40,116 nt of DNA from a virus. How positions within the stretch are numbered: position 1 is the stretch's first letter; every line of letters starts with the position of its first letter. Below are positions 7,304-40,116 of this stretch, piece after piece. The notes beneath the pieces are model-generated. The model was given only the letters and a program-made list of their open reading frames with translations. It made no database searches and was not told where the DNA came from. A program made the position numbers and the translations under genes. The DNA lies in IMG/VR virus record IMGVR_UViG_3300018018_000453, positions 1-40,116 of that record. The stretch is one strand, 5' to 3'.

Positions 7304-9892
7304 CTAAGCGACGGCGAGGTCTTTCACAATGGTGCGAATCAACTGAACCGCATCCGCGAGGGTGAGGGGGCGGTTGGTCAAGGAGAACTCGGCCGACTTC
7401 GCGTCTAGCAGGTCCCGTGTCAACATGTAGATCACGTAGATGCCTGAAAGGCCGGTGTCCGCGTCGGTGACGGTGACAGTGTCGAATGGGGCGTAGGAGC
7501 CAGAGACGTAGTCGTCTATCCATTTCACGTCGATGGTTTCCCGCAAGTTCTGCTTCTGCGCTAGGAGGGCCTGGGCCCGGAGGCTTAGGGTCCCTGCATC
7601 AGTGATGTTCTTCGCTGGGAACGCCTCTTCGATGAGGCCGTAGAGCAGCTGCGTGGTTAGGTTCGTGGCCGCTGCGACCAGGGATGCACTAGCGCCCGCA
7701 CCAATCGCGTACACGGATGTGTCCAGCTGTGACCAATCTTCCTCATGCGTCGACTCCGTTTCCTGGTTTCCTTCCAGAATAGTAATCGCCTTCGCGGCCC
7801 CGAAGGATGGGGCAAAGTCCAGGGTCTTATCAGCGTTCAACCGGAAGAGCCAACCGGTCGCATTCTGGACCTGGATGAGGGCGTCGTAGAGGCTCTCGTA
7901 ACTGGCAACCAGTTTGATGTTTGAGCCGAAAAGTGATATCGTGCCGGCCGTGATGCCGCATGGGAATCTGGAGAGCAGGTCGGTTATGATGTTCTTCGGG
8001 TCGTCCAGGTAGGTTCGGTTCACGATGCGGCGTTGAAGAGTGATCACTTCGCTGACGCCGTCGAACGTGAGGAGGGGTGTTGCGCCGCTGACTCTTTTCC
8101 GGTGCATGATCCGGCCGGCGAACTCTTTCACGCCAAGCCTGTAAATCTCAACAGCCCACCAACCCCCCAGGCTAGTGCCCATCTGGGGCGTTGTGATGCT
8201 GAAGGGCTGCGGTTTGAAGTCGGAAGAGAGCACATAGCTCCCACCACTCGAAACCACTTCCTGGCCGGCTATGAAGACCTGGTAATCTTTCGACGAATCA
8301 GGGGCCACTTGCGCGTAGTAGATGTCGATGAGCTGCTGACTGTTCGACGGGGCGTAAGTGGCGTCGCCGCCGAACACTGCCTGCACGCCTCCCAGCCCAG
8401 GGCTGCTGCCGGGCGTGAACGTGGTCTGCAGTTGCCCGTTCGAATCAGTTGTGCCACTGGTAGGGCTACAGGTCCCCAGGTTCGGCGTGAAGGCAATTGC
8501 CTTGCCGCTCAGTGGGCTTCCGGTGTCTAGATCTGTCAGTGTGACGGTGACGAGGGCAGTTGCCGGGGAGAGGCCGCTGCCCGCCCGGTAGATGAGAGTG
8601 TTGTCGGCGGAGATAGCTTGGCTGCTCTGGTTCGGAATCCACGTGTAGATGTCGCCGCCCCAGAGGATTATCGTGGTCCCTGTGTAGAGAAGCGTCGTCC
8701 CATCGGTGTCGTAGACTTTGAAGTACCCTGAGAACCCGTACGCTGTGGTGACCTGAGCGCTGACGTCTATGGTGACTGCGCTTCCAGGAGCGGGACAGGT
8801 CCCTGTTCCAACGAGGCCGCCGCCTGCGTTGTAGATTTCAACTTTCTGGCCGCCAAGCAGCGCGTTAATCGTGATGACCTTATCCAGCATGATGATTAGG
8901 TCGTCCCAGGTGCACTGGGCGCTGCGATTATCCGCGCCCGCGGAGGCGTTGCGCAGTTTGAGTTCGAGGGTCTGCGTTCCTGTCGGCGTGACCGCAACCC
9001 ATCCTGAGTCGAAGAAACCGTTATCCAGGGACCTGGCTTCGGTCTGCACGTCCTGGTCGAAGATGGTTTGGCTGCCGATGGCGTAGCTGACTTTCCACAT
9101 GTTGGTGCCAGTAACGTAGCCGAAGGAGTCAACCAGGAAAGTGCCGGCATTATTAGTGAATCCAACATTCGCTGGAAAAGTATCTGGCGCTGGGACAGAG
9201 GAATCGCTGCATGTTCCGATCTGAACGTTATCTCTATAGAGCTTGACGTTGCCTGCAGTCCAGGCCACCAGGTAATTGTGGTAGCCGGCGACTATGGCGC
9301 CGCAATCCGTGGTTGTCGCCAGGCCTGAAGAGTTCGTGTACAGTTTAACGTGGCCCGTGCCATCCGTGTTGAATTGGATGGCGATGGCGGAAACGGCATC
9401 GGTGGCAAGGTAGACGGATACGGTACCTTGAATGGGGCTGTCGGCTTTGCAACACACGAACGAGTTGTAGTACACACTTGGTGGGAGCTGGAAAGCGGCC
9501 TGGGTGGTGAAGGATGCCCCCGCTGGGATGCTGCAGATGCTGTTGGCAACTGTGCAGGTGCCGCCTCCATTCCACTTCGTTGCGTCGAGGCTTCCACTTC
9601 CTGGGAAATCATCCATGATGGAAGCCACATAGCCGGGCCCACGGAACAGGCGGGTAACCCGATTAGCGCCGGATCCCACGGCCACGCTCTTCGTGAACCT
9701 GGAATATGCACCACTTGGCCAGCTGCTTAGGGTTTCGAGTTGAAACGCGCCGGCGCCGCTATGGGCTTTTCCAATCTTGCTGCCCAGGGCGGTTGTTGTT
9801 CCGCTGATGCTGAAGGTCCAGCTGTTCAGGTAACTCTCACAGTTCTCCGCGAGAATCAACCCGGTGCTGGCCAGGACGATGACGCCGGTCAT
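7304..9892 (-). CDS. Tail hub/tip protein with an inserted Big_1-like domain
   Basis: An 862-aa protein directly after the tape measure, overlapping it by ATGA. Residues about 1-300 look like laminin-G/concanavalin-type beta sandwiches. Near residues 430-530 comes an Ig-like unit with the Big_1 signature (VTVTLTDLDTGSPLSGKAIAF, then SGTTDSNGQLQTTFTPG and a VQAVFGGDATYAPS end). The last third (about 560-860) resembles phage hub proteins: strands, then IITDLLSRFPCGITAG, a 'TGWLFRLNADKTLDF' segment, and a final VTVTDADTGLSGIYVIY. This fits a hub that closes the tube and carries carbohydrate-contact domains. The hub assignment comes from position and general pattern. Confidence 0.7.
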   Translation of the reverse strand: MTGVIVLASTGLILAENCESYLNSWTFSISGTTTALGSKIGKAHSGAGAFQLETLSSWPSGAYSRFTKSVAVGSGANRVTRLFRGPGYVASIMDDFPGSGSLDATKWNGGGTCTVANSICSIPAGASFTTQAAFQLPPSVYYNSFVCCKADSPIQGTVSVYLATDAVSAIAIQFNTDGTGHVKLYTNSSGLATTTDCGAIVAGYHNYLVAWTAGNVKLYRDNVQIGTCSDSSVPAPDTFPANVGFTNNAGTFLVDSFGYVTGTNMWKVSYAIGSQTIFDQDVQTEARSLDNGFFDSGWVAVTPTGTQTLELKLRNASAGADNRSAQCTWDDLIIMLDKVITINALLGGQKVEIYNAGGGLVGTGTCPAPGSAVTIDVSAQVTTAYGFSGYFKVYDTDGTTLLYTGTTIILWGGDIYTWIPNQSSQAISADNTLIYRAGSGLSPATALVTVTLTDLDTGSPLSGKAIAFTPNLGTCSPTSGTTDSNGQLQTTFTPGSSPGLGGVQAVFGGDATYAPSNSQQLIDIYYAQVAPDSSKDYQVFIAGQEVVSSGGSYVLSSDFKPQPFSITTPQMGTSLGGWWAVEIYRLGVKEFAGRIMHRKRVSGATPLLTFDGVSEVITLQRRIVNRTYLDDPKNIITDLLSRFPCGITAGTISLFGSNIKLVASYESLYDALIQVQNATGWLFRLNADKTLDFAPSFGAAKAITILEGNQETESTHEEDWSQLDTSVYAIGAGASASLVAAATNLTTQLLYGLIEEAFPAKNITDAGTLSLRAQALLAQKQNLRETIDVKWIDDYVSGSYAPFDTVTVTDADTGLSGIYVIYMLTRDLLDAKSAEFSLTNRPLTLADAVQLIRTIVKDLAVA

Positions 9893-20201: not shown

Positions 20202-20311
20202 CGCTTTGCCCGCGCCAGGAGGCCCCGTATGTCTAGGAGTACCTCGAGGTGCAGAGAGTCGAGGGGTTTTCCAGCCTTCACGTCGGCTTCGATTTGGGTT
20301 CGCGGTCTCAT
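20177..20311 (-). CDS. Micro-protein coupled to the portal gene
   Basis: A 44-aa ORF starts at an ATG overlapping the portal's TGA (ATGA) and runs to TGA at 20179. The sequence is helical and basic, with KPLDSLHLEVLLDIRGLLARAKRQ. The tight overlap and good composition argue for a coding gene that is too short for standard callers. It might assist portal or protease assembly. No family known. Confidence 0.5.
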   Translation of the reverse strand: MRPRTQIEADVKAGKPLDSLHLEVLLDIRGLLARAKRQSAVSDA

Positions 20312-21924
20312 TGTCCAGTTGGCTCCGTTTGTTCGGTTTCCGCGAGCTCAGCAGGGTCGAACTTAGCCGATGCACCGTCCCTCATGAGCTCGTACGCTTT
20401 CTCCTTGTCAACCATGCCGAGGCCACCATCGTAGGCGGCCGCGACTGCGGTTAGGAGTTGGAAGAAGTCAGTTGTGCGAATCTCACGCCACCGATGCCGA
20501 ACACGGACCGGGGGGTCCTGGCCGTTAGGAGTCTTGAGGTAGAGGCGCGTTAGGGGGTCGTACCATTGCTGCTCCACGACTCGCTGTATCCAACGTTGAA
20601 TATCCGTGATGGGCCCGTCGACGAAGGACTCCAGCTGCGTATAGCTTGTCGCCCGGTTCACCTGTTCGGTGCGGTTGAGGATGAATTTCGGAACTTGGAA
20701 GTTGCCGATGATCTCCTGGTCCAGGTCGTTCTTCACTGCGACGAGGCTTTGCAGATCGGGCTTCAGGTCGATAACTTGAATGGCCCAACGGTTGTCTGTG
20801 GCAATGTGTTTGCCAGGCCGCAGCGAGGCTATGTGTGTGTCTATGATGGCTTGCACGTCGGCGTCGGTTAATCCTGCAGGGAGGCGGTCGACGTCGAGGC
20901 TGTGTATGGCGATGCCGGCCCAGAGAGTTGTCGCCGCTTCCTTCAAGTCTTCAATGCGAATCTTCGCCCTGGTCTCCACATCGTCCAGGACCGGTTCAAT
21001 ATCGCTGATGCCTTCATAGTCTGACTCAAGGGAGTTGTTCGTGAAGTACAGGAGTTCCCCTGGGGCGTAGAAGTTTTTCTGGCCACGCCACCAGAAACCT
21101 TCCAGTTCCCAGTCCTCGTTCACATTGGGGCGTAGGTCGAACAGGCTGAGGAGTGGGAGGGAGATGAGGCGCCCGGGTTCCTTCTTCTGGTTGAGTTCGA
21201 TTTCGAATCCTGCCTTCCCGTAAATCTTGGCTTTGATGATGGCCACACGCAGGACGTGGTCGAGGTCGACACGCAGGTTGATTTTGTCAATCCACTGCTT
21301 CAGGGGCAGGTTGGCGTCGATGGCTTGTTGCTGTTGTTCGGGGGTTAGGCCTTCGCCGACGGGTTCCAAGACCGTGTCGAAAGATTCCTTCGTCGACCAG
21401 TATGCGAGGGCGTTGATGCATCCGCGCACGATGGCGTCCATGCGGTATGCGCGGTAATGTTTCTCCATCCCCTTGTAGGCTTCGAAGATGGTCTGCGTCA
21501 TGCCCAGGTAGTACCGTGACTTGGCGGCCGACAGCTGATGGCTTAGGGGAAGGTTGCTCAGCTGCATCGCGGCTGCTTCAGCAACACGCCTGGAGCTCGC
21601 ATGAACAGCAATCCGAACGCCGGACGGTGTTCCTGGGTAGGGGAAGGAAACCGATTTCTCGCTGACCGTGACGCCAGGCATCCGCTCAAGCGCGGAGAAA
21701 TCCCCGATTGGGGTCCCTCCTGCAGACCTAGTGCCTGCAACAGGCCGGCGGTCCCTGGTTGCGGCTTTGGTGGCCATCAACGGCCGCTTGGTCGGTAACC
21801 GACCAGCCTTCTTTGGTGCATGCGTGACGGTCCAGGGAGGCGGCTTGTGTGCACTGCGCGTTTTGCGCATTCTGCGCGTTTTGCGCGGCTTGGGAGGCCA
21901 GGGCTTGTTCTTCGACTTGGTCAT
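20308..21924 (-). CDS. Portal protein
   Basis: The 538-aa product has a long basic and Pro-rich N-terminus (about 1-95) and then the portal core. This includes helices near residues 130-230 (TQTIFEAYKGMEKHYRAYRMDAIVRGCINALAYW), the wing strands with GKAGFEIELNQKK, FDLRPNVNED, LYFTNNSLESDYEGISDIEPVL, and the late crown/stem helices (KNDLDQEIIGNFQVPKFILN, TSYTQLESFVDGPITDIQRWIQRVVEQQ). This matches phage portal proteins of the HK97/SPP1 line. The basic leader is unusual and holds an 18-base repeat. Start ATG overlaps the upstream GtrA-like gene by four bases. Confidence 0.9.
   Translation of the reverse strand: MTKSKNKPWPPKPRKTRRMRKTRSAHKPPPWTVTHAPKKAGRLPTKRPLMATKAATRDRRPVAGTRSAGGTPIGDFSALERMPGVTVSEKSVSFPYPGTPSGVRIAVHASSRRVAEAAAMQLSNLPLSHQLSAAKSRYYLGMTQTIFEAYKGMEKHYRAYRMDAIVRGCINALAYWSTKESFDTVLEPVGEGLTPEQQQQAIDANLPLKQWIDKINLRVDLDHVLRVAIIKAKIYGKAGFEIELNQKKEPGRLISLPLLSLFDLRPNVNEDWELEGFWWRGQKNFYAPGELLYFTNNSLESDYEGISDIEPVLDDVETRAKIRIEDLKEAATTLWAGIAIHSLDVDRLPAGLTDADVQAIIDTHIASLRPGKHIATDNRWAIQVIDLKPDLQSLVAVKNDLDQEIIGNFQVPKFILNRTEQVNRATSYTQLESFVDGPITDIQRWIQRVVEQQWYDPLTRLYLKTPNGQDPPVRVRHRWREIRTTDFFQLLTAVAAAYDGGLGMVDKEKAYELMRDGASAKFDPAELAETEQTEPTGQ
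21855..21886 (-). repeat. Short tandem repeat in the basic leader of the portal gene
   Basis: The 14-base word TGCGCGTTTTGCGC (plus strand) stands at 21855-21868 and again at 21873-21886, an 18-base period. On the coding strand it yields a repeated RKTR pattern in residues about 13-24. It may be a site of length variation. Confidence 0.6.
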
Positions 21925-22154
21925 TTCTCAAAGACCCACAATTTGCTAAGTAGGAAGTGTACGCTGCCGCCGATGATGGTGGTGAGCTCGTAGAATCCCA
22001 TCTCCACGGCGTTGAACCGGTAGAGAAGCACCGTCCAGAACAGGTCTGGCAGCCGGCCCTTCAACCCGTAGAAAAGCAACGTGCTGATCGCAACGCCAAC
22101 GATGCCGCTAATACCGAACTTCAGCAGCTGCAGGAGAACATTCTTCGCTGACAA
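21921..22154 (-). CDS. Mini GtrA-like membrane protein
   Basis: A 77-aa protein with two predicted membrane segments (about 10-29 and 40-70), a basic N-terminus and the C-terminal block SVHFLLSKLWVFEK. This block strongly recalls the 'NFLLNRLWVF' end of the GtrA family (membrane flippase-like helpers for polyprenyl-linked sugars). Full GtrA has four membrane helices and about 120-140 residues, so this would be a shortened form. It starts at a TTG directly after the nuclease stop and sits between terminase and portal, an odd site for a sugar-transfer protein. Alternative: a viral membrane peptide with chance similarity. Confidence 0.5.
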   Translation of the reverse strand: MSAKNVLLQLLKFGISGIVGVAISTLLFYGLKGRLPDLFWTVLLYRFNAVEMGFYELTTIIGGSVHFLLSKLWVFEK

Positions 22155-22703
22155 CTAGAACGACCTTGTGATCGGCTTGAAGCCTGGGACTGGGGGCGCC
22201 CTAGTAGCGAACACTGCCAACGCAACCGCCCAAAAGATGTCGTCGTGGGTTCCGTCGGGGTGAGAGAATTGCATCTGGCCAGTCTTGGTGAGTTCGAATT
22301 GTTCCACGTTGAGTTCGCCGGTCAGGTTGACTTCGAACGGGTAGGTGAACAGTTCATTCTCCATGAGTTGCTTGAGGTGGCTGAGAATCTCCTGCTTCTT
22401 CGGCAGGCTTAGCATGACGCCTTCGACGTGTTTGATGCCGCCTTTCTGCATGTCCTCAACGATATACTCGCCCACGCCAGTTTGGTCGACAAGGCACTTC
22501 TGCACATTGCGAAGCCTCTCAATGATCACGCGGACCGACCCAATCACGGAACTGTACGGTGTCTCGAGGGGCCACCGCTTGTAGTAGACCAGGTCGACCG
22601 GTTCCCTGTTCGGTTGCTTGGAGACCACGGCGATAACGGAATAGTCGTGTTTCTTGCCAAGGTCCACGCCGAGGTAGAATGAGCCTTGCGGTTCTTTTGA
22701 CAA
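22155..22703 (-). CDS. Terminase large subunit, nuclease domain as a separate ORF
   Basis: The 182-aa product is the C-terminal RNase H-like nuclease half of a large terminase. It has GSFYLGVDLGKKHDYSVIAVV (acidic residues about 14 and 20), CLVDQTGVGEYI (Asp 73) and HDDIFWAVALAVF (HDD at 153-155). This matches known terminase nuclease folds, which cut the genome at packaging start and end. The ATPase half is encoded upstream in another frame, 262 bases away. It begins at a TTG immediately after TGA (TGATTG), with the same frame open for 87 codons or more before that TGA. Readthrough or frameshift may link it to the preceding ORF. Confidence 0.85.
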   Translation of the reverse strand: MSKEPQGSFYLGVDLGKKHDYSVIAVVSKQPNREPVDLVYYKRWPLETPYSSVIGSVRVIIERLRNVQKCLVDQTGVGEYIVEDMQKGGIKHVEGVMLSLPKKQEILSHLKQLMENELFTYPFEVNLTGELNVEQFELTKTGQMQFSHPDGTHDDIFWAVALAVFATRAPPVPGFKPITRSF

Positions 22704-22967
22704 TCAGGATCCCTTTTCCTCAGGGACCTGCAGGAGTTTGTTGAGTTTATCACTCTCAGAGGGTAGGCCGAGAACACGAATCAAATCCCCATCCACGGTA
22801 ACGAATTGGAAGAGTTGGCATGTCTCACCGGTTCTCTCGAAAAGCGCCTTAAATCCCCGCACGGTTAGCGTCGCGTCAAACTCAACCTTGTCTTGGCGAA
22901 TACGAGCCCACCAAAGACCGTCCGCCGTGTGGTAGAAAGCAACGACTTGGGTATCATTCCCGTGATT
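22704..22967 (-). CDS. Interposed ORF between terminase ATPase and nuclease, no usual start
   Basis: The frame of the nuclease ORF extends upstream of its TTG, across one TGA, through 87 codons from just after the ATPase stop. It reads like a globular protein (VVAFYHTADGLWWARIRQDKVEFDATLTVRG..., then TCQLFQFVTVDGDLIRVLGLPSESDKL), but there is no ATG, GTG or TTG until Val codon 36. The same frame stays open a further 19 codons into the ATPase coding sequence, up to a TGA at 23027. It could be a domain reached by a +1 shift from the ATPase end, an inserted gene, or part of a decayed fusion. Family not recognised; typical terminases have no such segment here. Confidence 0.5.
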   Translation of the reverse strand, partial: NHGNDTQVVAFYHTADGLWWARIRQDKVEFDATLTVRGFKALFERTGETCQLFQFVTVDGDLIRVLGLPSESDKLNKLLQVPEEKGS

Positions 22968-23829
22968 AGAATCCGAAGAAGGAATCGGGGATGAAGGAGG
23001 CGTCAGGGTTGATGCACCTAGTGATCAAGTCTTGGGAGAGGAATGCGGTTTCATCCTCGGTAAATTCAGCTTCGAACTCTCGCCGGAAACGGTCCGTAGG
23101 CATGCTGCGGCGCATCTCTTCAATGAACTCGGGCTTCGCCAGTTTGGCTTTCACGACGTCTTCCCAGGTTATGTGGTGCTTCGAGAAGTCGGGGTTCTGT
23201 GAGAACTTGTAGAAGACCGTGTTCTTGCCCCAGGGAGTGGAGCTCGTGATCAGACTGCCGTCGGTGGTTTGAAGCATCGGGTAAAGAACGTTGAAGAACA
23301 TCAACTCGTCGTCACGGAAGAAGGCCGCCTCATCGCAAAGTACCTCGGCGGCCGAATATCCCCTGAGTAGGTTCGGGCTGTTAGGCAACGCCACGATGCG
23401 GGACCCATTCTTGAAACGGATGGTGGTCCGCTGAACCTTGCCGAGGGCCTCTCGGCGCACGGGCTTGGGGATATTGTAGATGAAGTCCTGAATCTTATCC
23501 ATCATGATCATGCTTTGTCGGAGGCCTGGAGCCACGATCAACCGGAGGGTCCCTGGGAATTGGAGGCAGCGCTGGATCATTCGGGCAGCAAGTGTGGTGC
23601 TCTTGCCACTCTGGCGCGACCAGCACACATAGATCCGCTTGGACTCGTCTTTGAGGAGTTTCTCCTGGTACGGGGTCGGGTTGAACTTCAAATAAATTTG
23701 GCAGAACTTTACAGGATCCTTGACGATTGCCTGGTCGAGAGTCTGCGGGACTGTTGGGTCGTCGGGGTGTCCGTCCTCGGCCGCACGCTTTGCTTCAACT
23801 TTCTTTTCGAGTTTTCTTCGCAAGGCCAT
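22966..23829 (-). CDS. Terminase large subunit, ATPase domain as a separate ORF
   Basis: The 287-aa product is a packaging ATPase. The Walker A motif SRQSGKST is at 71-78 and Walker B VLCDEA at about 163-168, followed by the C-motif SSTPWG (about 196-201). The sequence then runs to FEAEFTEDETAFLSQDLI...CINPD, the usual link to the nuclease domain. Instead of entering the nuclease it stops at TAA after FGF. Classical terminases continue directly into 'YLGVDLG', which here opens a separate ORF. GGAGT precedes the ATG, which overlaps the small-terminase-like gene by 35 bases. Confidence 0.9.
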   Translation of the reverse strand: MALRRKLEKKVEAKRAAEDGHPDDPTVPQTLDQAIVKDPVKFCQIYLKFNPTPYQEKLLKDESKRIYVCWSRQSGKSTTLAARMIQRCLQFPGTLRLIVAPGLRQSMIMMDKIQDFIYNIPKPVRREALGKVQRTTIRFKNGSRIVALPNSPNLLRGYSAAEVLCDEAAFFRDDELMFFNVLYPMLQTTDGSLITSSTPWGKNTVFYKFSQNPDFSKHHITWEDVVKAKLAKPEFIEEMRRSMPTDRFRREFEAEFTEDETAFLSQDLITRCINPDASFIPDSFFGF

Positions 23830-32225: not shown

Positions 32226-33269
32226 CTAGAATCCAAGCACTCGAGATTTGCTTTGGAGATCGATGTTCAACAGACTTTTCTTGTTCGGCAATGTCCTCAC
32301 TCTCCTGATTAGGTGAGCCTTCCTCTTCTGCCTCACAAGCGGCAACAGTGCTCCAGTCTTAAAGCATTTCGCAATTTTGCGATGAGGTTCGCTTACGTCA
32401 ACGCGACCGAATACAGTGGCAAATCTGCGCAGGCAAGGCGTCGGGTCTCCAATATCACATCCAACCCACAACCGCTCGTGCACTTGGGCTGCGTGAAGCG
32501 TTGACCCCCCACCTGCAAAAATATCCAACACGATGTCATGCTTGTTTGTGGCCATCAAGATCGCCCTTTCCGGGATGTGTAGTGGGAGTTCGTTGACCCT
32601 GACTCTCCGAGCTTTGTCTTGATTGGCAGGCCGGGTATCCTCCCAAAAATCAGATATCTGAATCCATGGAACACCTAGGTCATCTTGAAACTTCTCGTAT
32701 TTCTTTCGATACCCTCCATAATCGGGCAGAACCGCATTACAATTTCGGCATGTCGGTGCCCTTTGGCGGACTATGTTGAAGGTTGCGTGTCCTCCTGTTT
32801 TGGTGTAATACAGAATCGTGTATAGTGCAGGGTGCAACCTGCCTCGAATGGGGAATCCGTTTTTCATTTTCACCGCAATCAGATTCCGGAGGGTGACATC
32901 GCCCCTTTCGTTCAACCAAGCGCCGAGGTCTAATGCCCACCGAGGTAGGTGGTATACACACAATGTTCCTCCAGGTTTCAGAACTCGGATCACTGCGTTC
33001 AACCATCTCTTGCACCACCGACGGTATTCGTCCACACCATTGTTGTCTTCAAAACTCGGATCTCCATAGTTCTTGCCCAGATTGAAAGGAGGATCCGCAA
33101 AGCAGAAGTCAATGCTCTCCGAACGGAGAAGATCGAGAAATCTAAGACAATCAGACCTAAAATAGGCCCCGTAACGGTTGAAGTAAATTGGTTCCACCGA
33201 ACGAATGCCGCGTTGAGCGGTTGAAGCCTCCATGACGAAATTATATCGTTTTACCGGTATAAATGTCAT
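32226..33269 (-). CDS. DNA methyltransferase of the beta class (DPPF ... FAGGGST)
   Basis: 347 aa. The catalytic motif DPPF at 59-62 precedes the SAM-binding motif FAGGGST at 251-257, which is the beta-class order of N4-cytosine or N6-adenine methylases. LKPGGTLCVYHLP (about 97-109) is the expected motif V region and a CRNC pair lies at 174-177 in the variable region, perhaps a zinc site in the target domain. It overlaps the upstream HTH gene by ATGA and lies divergent to the AIPR gene, so a modification role in a restriction-like cassette is likely. An ATG at residue 13 could also start it. Confidence 0.85.
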   Translation of the reverse strand: MTFIPVKRYNFVMEASTAQRGIRSVEPIYFNRYGAYFRSDCLRFLDLLRSESIDFCFADPPFNLGKNYGDPSFEDNNGVDEYRRWCKRWLNAVIRVLKPGGTLCVYHLPRWALDLGAWLNERGDVTLRNLIAVKMKNGFPIRGRLHPALYTILYYTKTGGHATFNIVRQRAPTCRNCNAVLPDYGGYRKKYEKFQDDLGVPWIQISDFWEDTRPANQDKARRVRVNELPLHIPERAILMATNKHDIVLDIFAGGGSTLHAAQVHERLWVGCDIGDPTPCLRRFATVFGRVDVSEPHRKIAKCFKTGALLPLVRQKRKAHLIRRVRTLPNKKSLLNIDLQSKSRVLGF

Positions 33270-33643: not shown

Positions 33644-33711
33644 CTGACACGATATGAGTGAGATGTGATTGCCGCCAAAGAATTTTCGCATCCATGTTAC
33701 TGACACGATAT
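33644..33711 (+). repeat. 12-base direct repeat around the AIPR start
   Basis: CTGACACGATAT at 33644-33655 and 33700-33711, 56 bases apart. The second copy is inside the coding sequence (codons for TDTI). Possibly a pair of regulator sites around the start at 33669. Confidence 0.45.
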
Positions 33712-35534
33712 CTAGGCTGAAATCTGAATATGGCTGGACGGAAGACACCCAGGCCTTTGCCCACTGGGCAATTTGCCACGCGTCAGACCTGCATGAACGA
33801 GACGTATTTGATGAGGTATATGTGGGTTCAAAGGATGACATGGCACTGGACGGATTCTACATTGATCCAGATCAGAAGGAGATACACCTACACCAATGCA
33901 AATATCATACTTCTGAGTCGAATTACGACGACCGTGCAGCTCTGGATGAGTTCGTCAAAGTACTAGAGAGACTGAAGGATGAAAAATCCAGCAAAGAGTT
34001 CAAAAGTGCTGCATTACGAAGCTGTGCTAGAGTGTATCGCGAGGAGGCAATTGCCGATCGCTACAACGTGGTTATGAAGTTCATCGTATACGCCACCCTG
34101 ACGCCCTCAGTCACAAATGAAGCAACGATACTTCGAAAATCCCTTCCTCAGAGGCATAGTCTGGAAATTTGGGACCTTAAGAGACTCGAAAATACATATT
34201 ACGCTCGATTTGCTTGGGACGACCCAATAACTGAACCAATTACGTTCCCACTTGTAAACACAAAACATGTAGATATGAAGACGGAAAAGGCTAACGCAGT
34301 AGTTGTGAATATCCCAGCCGCAGAATTATACGACATTAGAAAGAAATATTCGAGACGGCTCTTTGCAAAGGACGTAAGGTATTACCTTCCTAAATCGCAG
34401 ATTAACAAGGCTATAGCTGAGACTTTGGATTCGCCGTCACAGAGAGAATACTTCTGGTTCTTCAATAATGGCATCAGCATCAGCTGCAGCGACTATTCGA
34501 TCAGCCGGAAGAAGAAAACGATTCGGATTGTTGAGCCCCAGATAATAAATGGCTGCCAAACCGCCGAGTCGATCTTTAACTTTGGTGATTCCGTGAAACA
34601 TGGACGCCATAACTTGGAAAAGGTGAGCGTTCTAGCTCGCGTCATTAAGCTCTCAGAAAAGGACGCGACTCTGAGCGCAAATATCACGGCCCGGACAAAT
34701 ACGCAGAATCCTCAAACATCACGAAATCTATGTGCAAATTACATATCACAGACGAGGTTAAAGAAGCGATTCAATGAGTTAGTTCCTCCAGTTTTCTATC
34801 AAACCAAGGACGGGGAATGGGAGAGCCTCCCTACCCACAAGAAAGATCACCACACAAGCAAAGAAGGCATGATCAGAAGAGTTGACAATCGCGATGCTGC
34901 CCAAGCATACATCGCATTCGCTAGGGACGATGACAAGTTGAATCCTGTGCAGGCTAGGCGATTGAGAAGTAGCCTGTTCGACATGACGAAACTCACTTAT
35001 CAAGACGTCTTCCCAGATGAGCCGCGAACTCCATATGAGTATCTGGTGCCGTGCCTTTTTCTCATGTACGTAGAAAGGAGGATTAGATCAATCCTCAAGG
35101 AAATCGGCGAACACGCACAGAAAGAGCAGGACGATGAAGAGCGCGTACAAGATGAAATAAAGGCGTCGGTGAGATATGCCAAGTGGTTCATGGTCGGAAT
35201 ATTGGGTTGGCTGGCTGGCAGACATTACGCGAAAGTGGCTTCCTACCCGGCAATCGCCAAGATTCTCTATCCTGCAATAGGCGATTTCTGGTCACCGTCA
35301 GATCTTGGGAAACAGATGCTTGACTTTGCGTTTACTGTGATCGAAGAGTACAGCGATGAAGAAACTAGGCGAGACGATGACGAAGAGGAGCCAGACCGCG
35401 AGGAGTTCGATCCTGCCCTAGCTTACAGACAGGATCGAACGTGGAAGAACTTGAAGCGTAAAGCGGCCCGGAACTATAAGCGAGAGATTGATTCTGGACG
35501 CTTCAAAGCCGACCTCTTCCCGAACTTGACTTAG
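33669..35534 (+). CDS. AIPR-family (abortive phage infection) protein
   Basis: 621 aa. The N-terminus has a nuclease-like pattern: ALDGFYIDPDQKEIHLHQCKYH, with Asp 61, Glu 71 and the Q-x-K pair at 76-78, as in PD-(D/E)XK folds. The centre has the AIPR hallmarks FNNGIS (265-270) and QIINGCQTAE (291-300), and downstream ARTNTQNPQTSRNL. The end is an acidic tail (DEETRRDDDEEEPDREEFD). AIPR proteins are linked to abortive infection and often sit beside methyltransferases. The TTG start is the first in frame. Base composition is more A+T-rich than the viral block, which suggests a separate origin. Confidence 0.85.
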   Translation: MPPKNFRIHVTDTISRLKSEYGWTEDTQAFAHWAICHASDLHERDVFDEVYVGSKDDMALDGFYIDPDQKEIHLHQCKYHTSESNYDDRAALDEFVKVLERLKDEKSSKEFKSAALRSCARVYREEAIADRYNVVMKFIVYATLTPSVTNEATILRKSLPQRHSLEIWDLKRLENTYYARFAWDDPITEPITFPLVNTKHVDMKTEKANAVVVNIPAAELYDIRKKYSRRLFAKDVRYYLPKSQINKAIAETLDSPSQREYFWFFNNGISISCSDYSISRKKKTIRIVEPQIINGCQTAESIFNFGDSVKHGRHNLEKVSVLARVIKLSEKDATLSANITARTNTQNPQTSRNLCANYISQTRLKKRFNELVPPVFYQTKDGEWESLPTHKKDHHTSKEGMIRRVDNRDAAQAYIAFARDDDKLNPVQARRLRSSLFDMTKLTYQDVFPDEPRTPYEYLVPCLFLMYVERRIRSILKEIGEHAQKEQDDEERVQDEIKASVRYAKWFMVGILGWLAGRHYAKVASYPAIAKILYPAIGDFWSPSDLGKQMLDFAFTVIEEYSDEETRRDDDEEEPDREEFDPALAYRQDRTWKNLKRKAARNYKREIDSGRFKADLFPNLT

Positions 35535-38133: not shown

Positions 38134-40116
38134 TTGGCATCAATCTTGGTGGAACTAGTCTGGGAGCGGAAGTACGATACATCAGGAGCCAAGACTGCCC
38201 CGGTTTCTGTAGCTCTGCCCTTCCAGACAATTGAAACCCTAAACGAATCTACACAGCAGCGTCAGAAGTCAATCGAATCATTTCTCACGGGAAGAGGTGA
38301 ATCTGAATGGCGGAACCGGCTCATATGGGGCGACAAGAAATACGTCCTTCCCAGTCTTCTGCCTGAATTTGCAGATTCAGTAGATCTAATCTACATAGAC
38401 CCACCATTTGATACAGGCGCTGATTTCTCATACTTGGTTGAAGTACCAGACCATCAAGTCGATACAACGTCTTTCACCAAGCTTCCCAGCGTGATTGAAC
38501 AGAAGGCTTACCGAGACACTTGGGGTGAAGGACCAACTCATCTTGATTCGTATCTGCGCTGGTTTTACGAGACACTCCTTTTCCTTGAAAAACTGCTCAA
38601 ACCAAGCGGAAGTATCTATGTTCATTTAGATTGGCATATCGGTCATTATGCCAAAGGGGTACTGGACGAAGTATTCGGTGCCGCACAATACCGCAGTGAA
38701 ATCATTTGGCAGAAGCTCCGTTCCGTTAAGTCACAAAGCTCGCATTTCGCCAACATGCACGATTCAATCTTCGCATATTCCAAGACTGATAATTTCGTTT
38801 TTAACCCGCCCTACGTCGAGAAAGATCCTAATCTCTTGAACACGCACTACCGACATACTGATCCTGATACCGGTAGACGGTACAATCTTGATAATTTCAC
38901 ACAGTCTGGCTCCGGCCCTCCTCGTCGATTCGGAAAGAAAGTTCTTGCTCCCCCGCCGGGAAAGCACTGGATATGGTCACAAGAGCGCATCGACGATGCT
39001 ATGCAGCAAGGATTAATTGTCTTTTCAAGTGGCGGTCTTCCGTATGTCAAGCGATTCTTTGATGATAGCGAAGGTACTCGTGTCGGAGACATATGGACGG
39101 ACATCAATCCAGTAAACCAAGTTGCTATCGAGAGGGTGGACTATCCCACACAGAAACCCGAAGCCCTGATCGAGCGTATCCTCAAAGCTTCCTCGAACGA
39201 AGGAGACCTAGTGCTGGATTGCTTCTGTGGCAGCGGAACCACGGCGGCGGTCGCGGAGAAGTTGGGAAGGCGCTGGATCATGTGTGACCTCAGTCGTTTT
39301 GCGATTCACACGACTCGAAAACGTCTTCTGGGGGTAGAGGGCGTCAAACCTTTCGTAATTCAGAATCTAGGTAAGTACGAGCGACAGGCTTGGCAGAACG
39401 CTGAATTTGGGAACGAAGCTGGAGCGAGAGTGCGGTCATACATTAGCTTTATTCTCACATTGTACAATGCCCAACCCTTGAACGGGCACATTTGGCTTCA
39501 CGGAAAGAAAGGGAGTCGGCTCGTTCATGTGGGTTCGGTTGACTCACCAATTTCACCGTTAGACGTTGGACAGATTGTTGCCGAGTTCAAGCGTTCAATT
39601 GGAACTGGGAAGGAAGCGCCGAGAACGAATGGCGTAGATGTCTTGGGATGGGATTTCGCTTTTGAATTGAATGAGCTGGCAAAGCAGCAAGCCGCCCTGG
39701 CTAATGTTGACCTGCGATTCTTGCGCATTCCACGTGAAGTACTTGACAAGAGGGCTGTTGAACAAGGCGATGTGCATTTCTACGAACTGGCATCATTGGA
39801 TGTTAGAGTAAAGTGTGCCGGAAAGAAAGCCACAGTTGCTATCAACGACTTCGTAATTCCATTGGATCACGTGCCAGCTGATATTCAGAAGGAGATTAAG
39901 CATTGGTCACAATGGATTGACTATTGGGCAGTTGACTGGAACAACAAGAATGACGCCTTTCACAATGAATGGCAAGAGTATCGCACCCGAGAAAAACCCA
40001 AGCTTGTAACAGAATCATCTAAGACATACGATGAGCACGGAGAATACCGTGTCGTCGTGAAAGTGATCGATATTCTCGGAAATGATACAACGAAAATGCT
40101 TCTGGTGAAGGTCTAG
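38134..40116 (+). CDS. Site-specific DNA methyltransferase (type III Mod-like)
   Basis: 660 aa, complete, ending with TAG at the last base. DLIYIDPPFDTGADF puts DPPF at 89-92. KPSGSIYVHLDWHIGHYAK is the conserved 'H.D......k' block, DYPTQKPEALIERIL precedes the SAM site and LDCFCGSGTTAAVAEKLGRRW puts FCGSGTT at 364-370. Beta-class order as in type III Mod subunits, which methylate adenine in one strand. The last 250 residues carry a beta-rich domain with DYWAVDWNNKNDAFHNEWQEYRT, found in Mod-like proteins that pair with helicase-type restriction subunits. A Res-like partner could lie just downstream, outside this window. Confidence 0.9.
   Translation: MASILVELVWERKYDTSGAKTAPVSVALPFQTIETLNESTQQRQKSIESFLTGRGESEWRNRLIWGDKKYVLPSLLPEFADSVDLIYIDPPFDTGADFSYLVEVPDHQVDTTSFTKLPSVIEQKAYRDTWGEGPTHLDSYLRWFYETLLFLEKLLKPSGSIYVHLDWHIGHYAKGVLDEVFGAAQYRSEIIWQKLRSVKSQSSHFANMHDSIFAYSKTDNFVFNPPYVEKDPNLLNTHYRHTDPDTGRRYNLDNFTQSGSGPPRRFGKKVLAPPPGKHWIWSQERIDDAMQQGLIVFSSGGLPYVKRFFDDSEGTRVGDIWTDINPVNQVAIERVDYPTQKPEALIERILKASSNEGDLVLDCFCGSGTTAAVAEKLGRRWIMCDLSRFAIHTTRKRLLGVEGVKPFVIQNLGKYERQAWQNAEFGNEAGARVRSYISFILTLYNAQPLNGHIWLHGKKGSRLVHVGSVDSPISPLDVGQIVAEFKRSIGTGKEAPRTNGVDVLGWDFAFELNELAKQQAALANVDLRFLRIPREVLDKRAVEQGDVHFYELASLDVRVKCAGKKATVAINDFVIPLDHVPADIQKEIKHWSQWIDYWAVDWNNKNDAFHNEWQEYRTREKPKLVTESSKTYDEHGEYRVVVKVIDILGNDTTKMLLVKV

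Follow-up and report, generated by a model that had tools for sequence, protein, structure and literature searches.

The window analysed here, 40,116 nucleotides of a virus (record IMGVR_UViG_3300018018_000453), carries the ATPase and the nuclease of a large terminase (TerL) in two separate open reading frames (ORFs), with an 87-codon ORF that lacks a usual start codon lying between them. Is this a broken gene, a single protein put together by recoding, or an enzyme of two chains with something inserted at the junction? Here, we propose that it is probably a genuine two-chain large terminase, the nuclease of which would be translated from its own TTG at 22703, while the segment in between would be a junction insert. 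Comparison with related genomes shows the split, its recurrence and, as predicted from alignment and modelling, the integrity of the nuclease.

Layout of the terminase locus

The first gene (22966-23829, minus strand; 287 aa, ATG start) encodes the ATPase and ends in ..PDSFFGF, followed by a TAA stop at 22968-22966. It has the Walker A (SRQSGKS) and Walker B (VLCDEA) motifs of a TerL ATPase domain, and matches Pfam Terminase_6N (E 1.3e-11) and the PHROG terminase large subunit (E 2.4e-35). A gap of 262 bases (22965-22704) separates this stop from the second gene (22155-22703, minus strand; 182 aa), the nuclease. In the reading frame used by the nuclease ORF, +1 to the ATPase, the gap is open, with a stop-to-stop extent of 23024-22704. 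Its 87-codon ORF (22704-22967, minus strand) has no ATG, GTG or TTG before a GTG at codon 36 and ends in TGA (22706-22704), directly adjoining the TTG at 22703 with which the nuclease ORF begins. The sequence-only reading had described this arrangement (an ATPase ORF, a 262-base gap in the nuclease frame, no start until codon 36 and a single TGA), and the coordinates confirm it. Unless recoding fuses them, then, the two domains of TerL lie in separate ORFs and not in one polypeptide.

The nuclease ORF matches terminase PHROGs and, by sequence, the nuclease domains of the Thermus phages P74-26 and G20c (5tge and 5m1f). The Asp residues of GVD, VDQTG and HDD are invariant in the nuclease alignment, as expected of the acidic triad of an RNase H-type nuclease. 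In the structural model (pLDDT 84; best fold match 5m1f, E 9e-11), the first strand occupies residues 8-14, so a chain begun at the TTG would be complete. The Thermus phage enzymes thus resemble the product of the window in nuclease fold and catalytic residues; they differ in having ATPase and nuclease in one polypeptide, where the window has two ORFs and an insert between them. The dN/dS ratio between the window and its relative L002 is 0.11 for the nuclease and 0.12 for the ATPase, and both halves are therefore under selection. The nuclease also has a predicted ribosome-binding site of its own: a Shine-Dalgarno (SD)-like stretch, GAGGAAAAGGG (22711-22721, minus strand), precedes the TTG, and the duplex dG over the 20 nt before this start is -9.4 in the window (background mean -3.9, s.d. 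2.5) and weaker (-5.6) in L002, where the TTG is kept.

Downstream of the terminase is a portal protein gene (20308-21924, minus strand), which matches Pfam Phage_portal below the curated cut-off (E 1.8e-8) and a portal PHROG (E 3.2e-6). Between nuclease and portal, a 77-aa membrane protein is encoded at 21921-22154 (minus strand; weak GtrA-like match, E 0.011, below cut-off), and an ORF similar to it also lies 3' of the nuclease in L002, L003 and L004. Elsewhere in the window, a gene for an AIPR-family protein (33669-35534, plus strand; Pfam E 1.2e-34) is found near DNA methylase genes (32226-33269 and 38134-40116); this part of the window may serve defence or restriction-modification. ARAGORN calls a tRNA-Leu (7554-7646, plus strand), antisense inside an 862-aa tail-like gene (7304-9892) and unconfirmed by Rfam at the gathering threshold.

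Recurrence of the split among related terminases

Eight IMG/VR scans and one genome-contig scan gathered 215 distinct related terminases, 24 of them divided at the ATPase/nuclease junction; L024, L411 and L424, with breaks inside the ATPase domain, were left out of this count. Most of the others consist of a single ORF, and among these are the terminases of MAGs titled Bathyarchaeota, Woesearchaeota and Terraquivivens. It is from relatives that an archaeal host is known, as the window record itself carries no host. Among the continuous TerL of archaeal viruses and proviruses, those of L095 and L096 (in Bathyarchaeota MAGs) and of L017 and L018 share the domain order and 57-63% ATPase identity with the window and, unlike it, are single ORFs of about 450-490 codons.

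A concatenated tree places the splits in three clades or more, each with continuous relatives around it. Clade I holds the window, L002-L005 and L012; clade II holds L039, L048, L050 and L109; and clade III, the unity of which is least secure (support 0.94, with 0.41 inside), holds L116, L136, L141, L146, L188, L192, L197, L200, L202, L205, L208, L260 and L355. L354, a near copy of L355, was not long enough to be placed. Archaeal genomes provide two more splits, L398 and L423. Like the window, the archaeal viruses or proviruses L355, L398 and L423 have separate ATPase and nuclease genes; unlike the window, they have no insert, and their nuclease begins at an ATG that overlaps the ATPase stop, in the +2 frame.

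Within clade I, the ATPase ORFs of L002-L006 and L012 all end at the same ..FGF* as that of the window (L004 and L006 are near-identical contigs, at 99.97%, and were counted once). This common split residue upholds the earlier view that the break lies exactly at the linker. The earlier interpretation as a whole was to fall if related viruses had one continuous terminase at this point, and here the answer is divided: distant relatives are continuous, and near relatives are split.

Could the break be a sequencing or assembly error, or the remains of a decayed gene, with one terminase ORF interrupted by indels? Errors or decay do exist in the data set, since L136 (3997-4130, clade III) has an extra in-frame stop in the nuclease frame and the ATPase of L024 is interrupted by a stop. 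For the window such an origin is highly improbable, given that several independent contigs agree in split residue and frame, that L002 has the same insert and that both halves are under purifying selection. An artefact, for which the sequence-only reading had counted at least two errors, can thus be set aside.

The segment at the junction

The gap resembles protein-coding sequence. Its codon usage in the ORF frame is 3.7 s.d. above that of shuffles, a coding signal of about 0.1 per codon that is at the low end among the genes of the window. Codons 1-35 are coding-like as well (z 2.3), which makes the GTG at codon 36 an unlikely start. The insertion recurs in L002, an independent contig, with 243 of 251 aligned bases identical to the window, beside an ATPase gene that is 78-95% identical. 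The dN/dS ratio of the segment between the two is 0.29, a value from just 4 synonymous and 4 other changes. Over 24600-20308 as a whole, identity between the window and L002 is 78% in the 5' ATPase gene, 97% in the insert and about 92% thereafter, with a possible recombination boundary near the split.

The profile search proposed for the segment in the sequence-only reading, run against Pfam, PHROGs and NCBIfam, returned no family match, and PDB sequences and phage records gave none either. In IMG/VR, by a scan that picks up close relatives only, the segment matched L002 alone; 398 archaeal genomes of one phylum yielded no match in a search that had no positive control. AlphaFold modelled the segment at low confidence (pLDDT 53), with a domain that starts at residue 5, just behind the ATPase stop, and a fold search with this model found no significant match.

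In the closest insert-free relatives, 7-16 bases separate the ATPase stop and the nuclease motif. The 87-codon segment is therefore an addition and not a lost linker, and we read it as a small coding insert at the junction, shared by this virus with a single close relative. Of the possibilities first raised for the locus, an insertion at the exact linker gains support from the insert-free close relatives (L003, L004, L012) and from L002. A third terminase subunit, as a conserved part of the enzyme, does not, the segment being common to L002 only and absent from the insert-free relatives.

Another option is that the segment is removed or skipped, as a group I intron, an archaeal splice intron, an intein or by ribosomal bypass. 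There are precedents: in Jug phages and Bastillevirinae, group I introns leave terL in pieces in the DNA, as in the window (PMC12363816; PMC11878797), and bypassing has been proposed for the terminase of phage Hau3 (PMC5009743). In the intron-bearing phages, RNA splicing restores one chain, whereas an Rfam search of the window found no intron match at the locus, of group I, group II or otherwise. The gap is moreover small, open and coding-like, and the insert-free relatives are still split, with a stop-to-motif distance too short for an intron. Removal or skipping is thus very unlikely.

Inserts at the same junction are also present in L200, L202 and L208 (clade III); there too, a conserved TTG precedes the nuclease. 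Relative to the ATPase, the nuclease frame is +1 in the window, 0 in L002, +2 in L200, +1 in L202 and +2 in L208. A varying frame with a kept TTG is to be expected if the nuclease is started separately, and speaks against readthrough of the TGA, which the sequence-only reading had suggested as a way to join gap and nuclease. We reject readthrough because L002, through a 10-base deletion relative to the window, has gap and nuclease in different frames and retains the TTG. As to content, the L200 insert (723-925) holds a forward ORF that is Cys-rich, with many CxxC pairs, and zinc-ribbon-like by eye; those of L202 (3790-3964) and L208 (3777-3964) hold short antisense ORFs that, also read by eye, have MWIFDE[EV]FW and a hydrophobic C-terminus in common.

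Separate start or frameshift

In light of the terminase being split, how might its parts be made? We suggest that the first gene yields an ATPase motor that ends right after the ATPase domain, and the second a complete RNase H-type nuclease begun at TTG 22703. The position of this TTG directly behind the upstream TGA suggests that the two are, probably, translationally coupled. Ribosomes would enter the segment in one of two ways: from a candidate non-canonical start inside the ATPase gene, a CTG in-frame with the gap ORF (23004-23006, minus strand) that follows an SD-like AGGTG by 8 nt (23015-23019, minus strand), or through a +1 shift by a minority of them at TTC|TAA, the last Phe codon and stop of the ATPase (22966-22971, minus strand). 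By either route they would stop at TGA 22704, be handed to the adjoining nuclease TTG and restart. The ATPase ring would then assemble on the portal, with the nuclease docking non-covalently as a separate subunit.

Speaking for an enzyme of two chains are the common split residue, the recurrence of the split in several clades, a complete nuclease with a dN/dS of 0.11, the kept TTG and the SD-like site. Three points count against it. The SD-like site of L002 is the weaker one, in L004/L006 and L005 a separate start would have to be a CTG, and phage T4 gp17, when split at the linker, kept its ATPase and nuclease activities and lost DNA translocation (PMC3012670). From the T4 result it follows that a motor of two chains requires a feature that T4 does not show: the halves may be held together in another way, or the nuclease may be used only for cutting.

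The alternative is a programmed +1 frameshift at the ‘shifty stop’ TTY TAR, where some ribosomes would skip one base. In the insert-free relatives this would make a one-chain ATPase-nuclease beside the ATPase alone, and so set the proportion of motor and cutter; the outcome in the window would be an ATPase with an 87-residue tail, and the nuclease would be restarted at the TTG. Such a shift is unlikely, though it has several points in its favour. TTY TAR followed by the +1 frame is constant across clade I, and in its insert-free members (L003, L004, L005, L006 and L012) the second ORF continues in +1 after ..FGF*. Ahead of the catalytic motif, the nuclease frame of L004/L006 is devoid of ATG, GTG and TTG; that of L005 has only a TTG, one codon from the motif, so that none would keep the first strand. 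A +1 fusion in L004 would have a linker of 21 residues, against 20 in the continuous L017. Upstream of the ATPase stop, the +1 frame has no coding signal and synonymous variation is not further constrained (0.46 in the overlap, 0.43 elsewhere). The low-confidence domain model of the segment, which begins right behind the stop, is also in keeping with a shift. In bacterial release factor 2 and antizyme, too, a stop ends the first ORF and the continuation is in +1 (PMC5009743). The window differs from the prfB type in that neither an SD at the prfB spacing upstream nor a 3' structure was found, although some known sites need no stimulatory element.

A rival start weighs against a shift. All clade I members except L003 have a CTG at -38 with AGGTG or CGGTG 8 nt before it (duplex dG over the 20 nt before the CTG: -9.4 in the window, -8.7 to -10.3 in L002, L004, L005 and L012), while in L003 and L012 an ATG lies 35 bases ahead of the ATPase stop, at the codon position next to that of the window's CTG. 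An SD-led CTG or ATG is thus found in every member of the clade. A slip from UUC to UCU, moreover, would allow only partial re-pairing. The earlier suggestion of a +1 shift at the ATPase stop consequently stands as a possibility, through the lack of a usual start in L004/L006, and is met by this SD-led CTG or ATG in the overlap.

The offset itself is weak evidence for frameshifting. Insert-free splits do have the nuclease in +1, except L354/L355, L398 and L423 (+2). In continuous relatives, however, the +1 frame at the junction is open for at least 25 codons in 28% and has a start-codon density of 0.079 per codon (0.016 in +2), so a new start would tend to arise in +1 anyway. This null, together with the +2 ATG starts of L355, L398 and L423, weakens the argument that all splits are +1 and hence frameshifted. 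In clades II and III, which are +1 as well, most nucleases have starts of their own, such as the conserved TTG of the L146 group with GGAGG about nine bases before it. Overall, 39% of the insert-free splits have SD-preceded starts (dG <= -8), against 5% of continuous pseudo-frames; under a stricter spacing rule the counts are 4 of 17 splits and 3 of 180 controls (Fisher p 0.0012, on tips that are related and not independent).

For clade I we keep both a separate start and a shift, leaning towards the separate start because it covers all clades. We also offer, as a doubtful but specific conjecture, that in archaeal tailed viruses a UUY UAR +1 shift gives a minority ATPase-nuclease fusion beside free ATPase, with few ring subunits carrying a cutter, and that in the window this shift joins the 87-residue domain to the motor while the nuclease is a free subunit.

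What would such terminases mean? In archaea, only a -1 shift, in fucA1, has been demonstrated, and a +1 event has been suggested in the haloarchaeal virus HSTV-2 (PMC8211752), so a +1 shift here, if true, would be an addition to a very short list. A search of the open-licence literature brought up no description of archaeal terminases that are naturally of two chains. Terminases that have been split repeatedly at one place, with both halves under selection, would offer natural tests of whether the covalent link between motor and nuclease is needed, and the viruses that carry them may equally serve to test whether the dose of nuclease is regulated apart from that of the motor.
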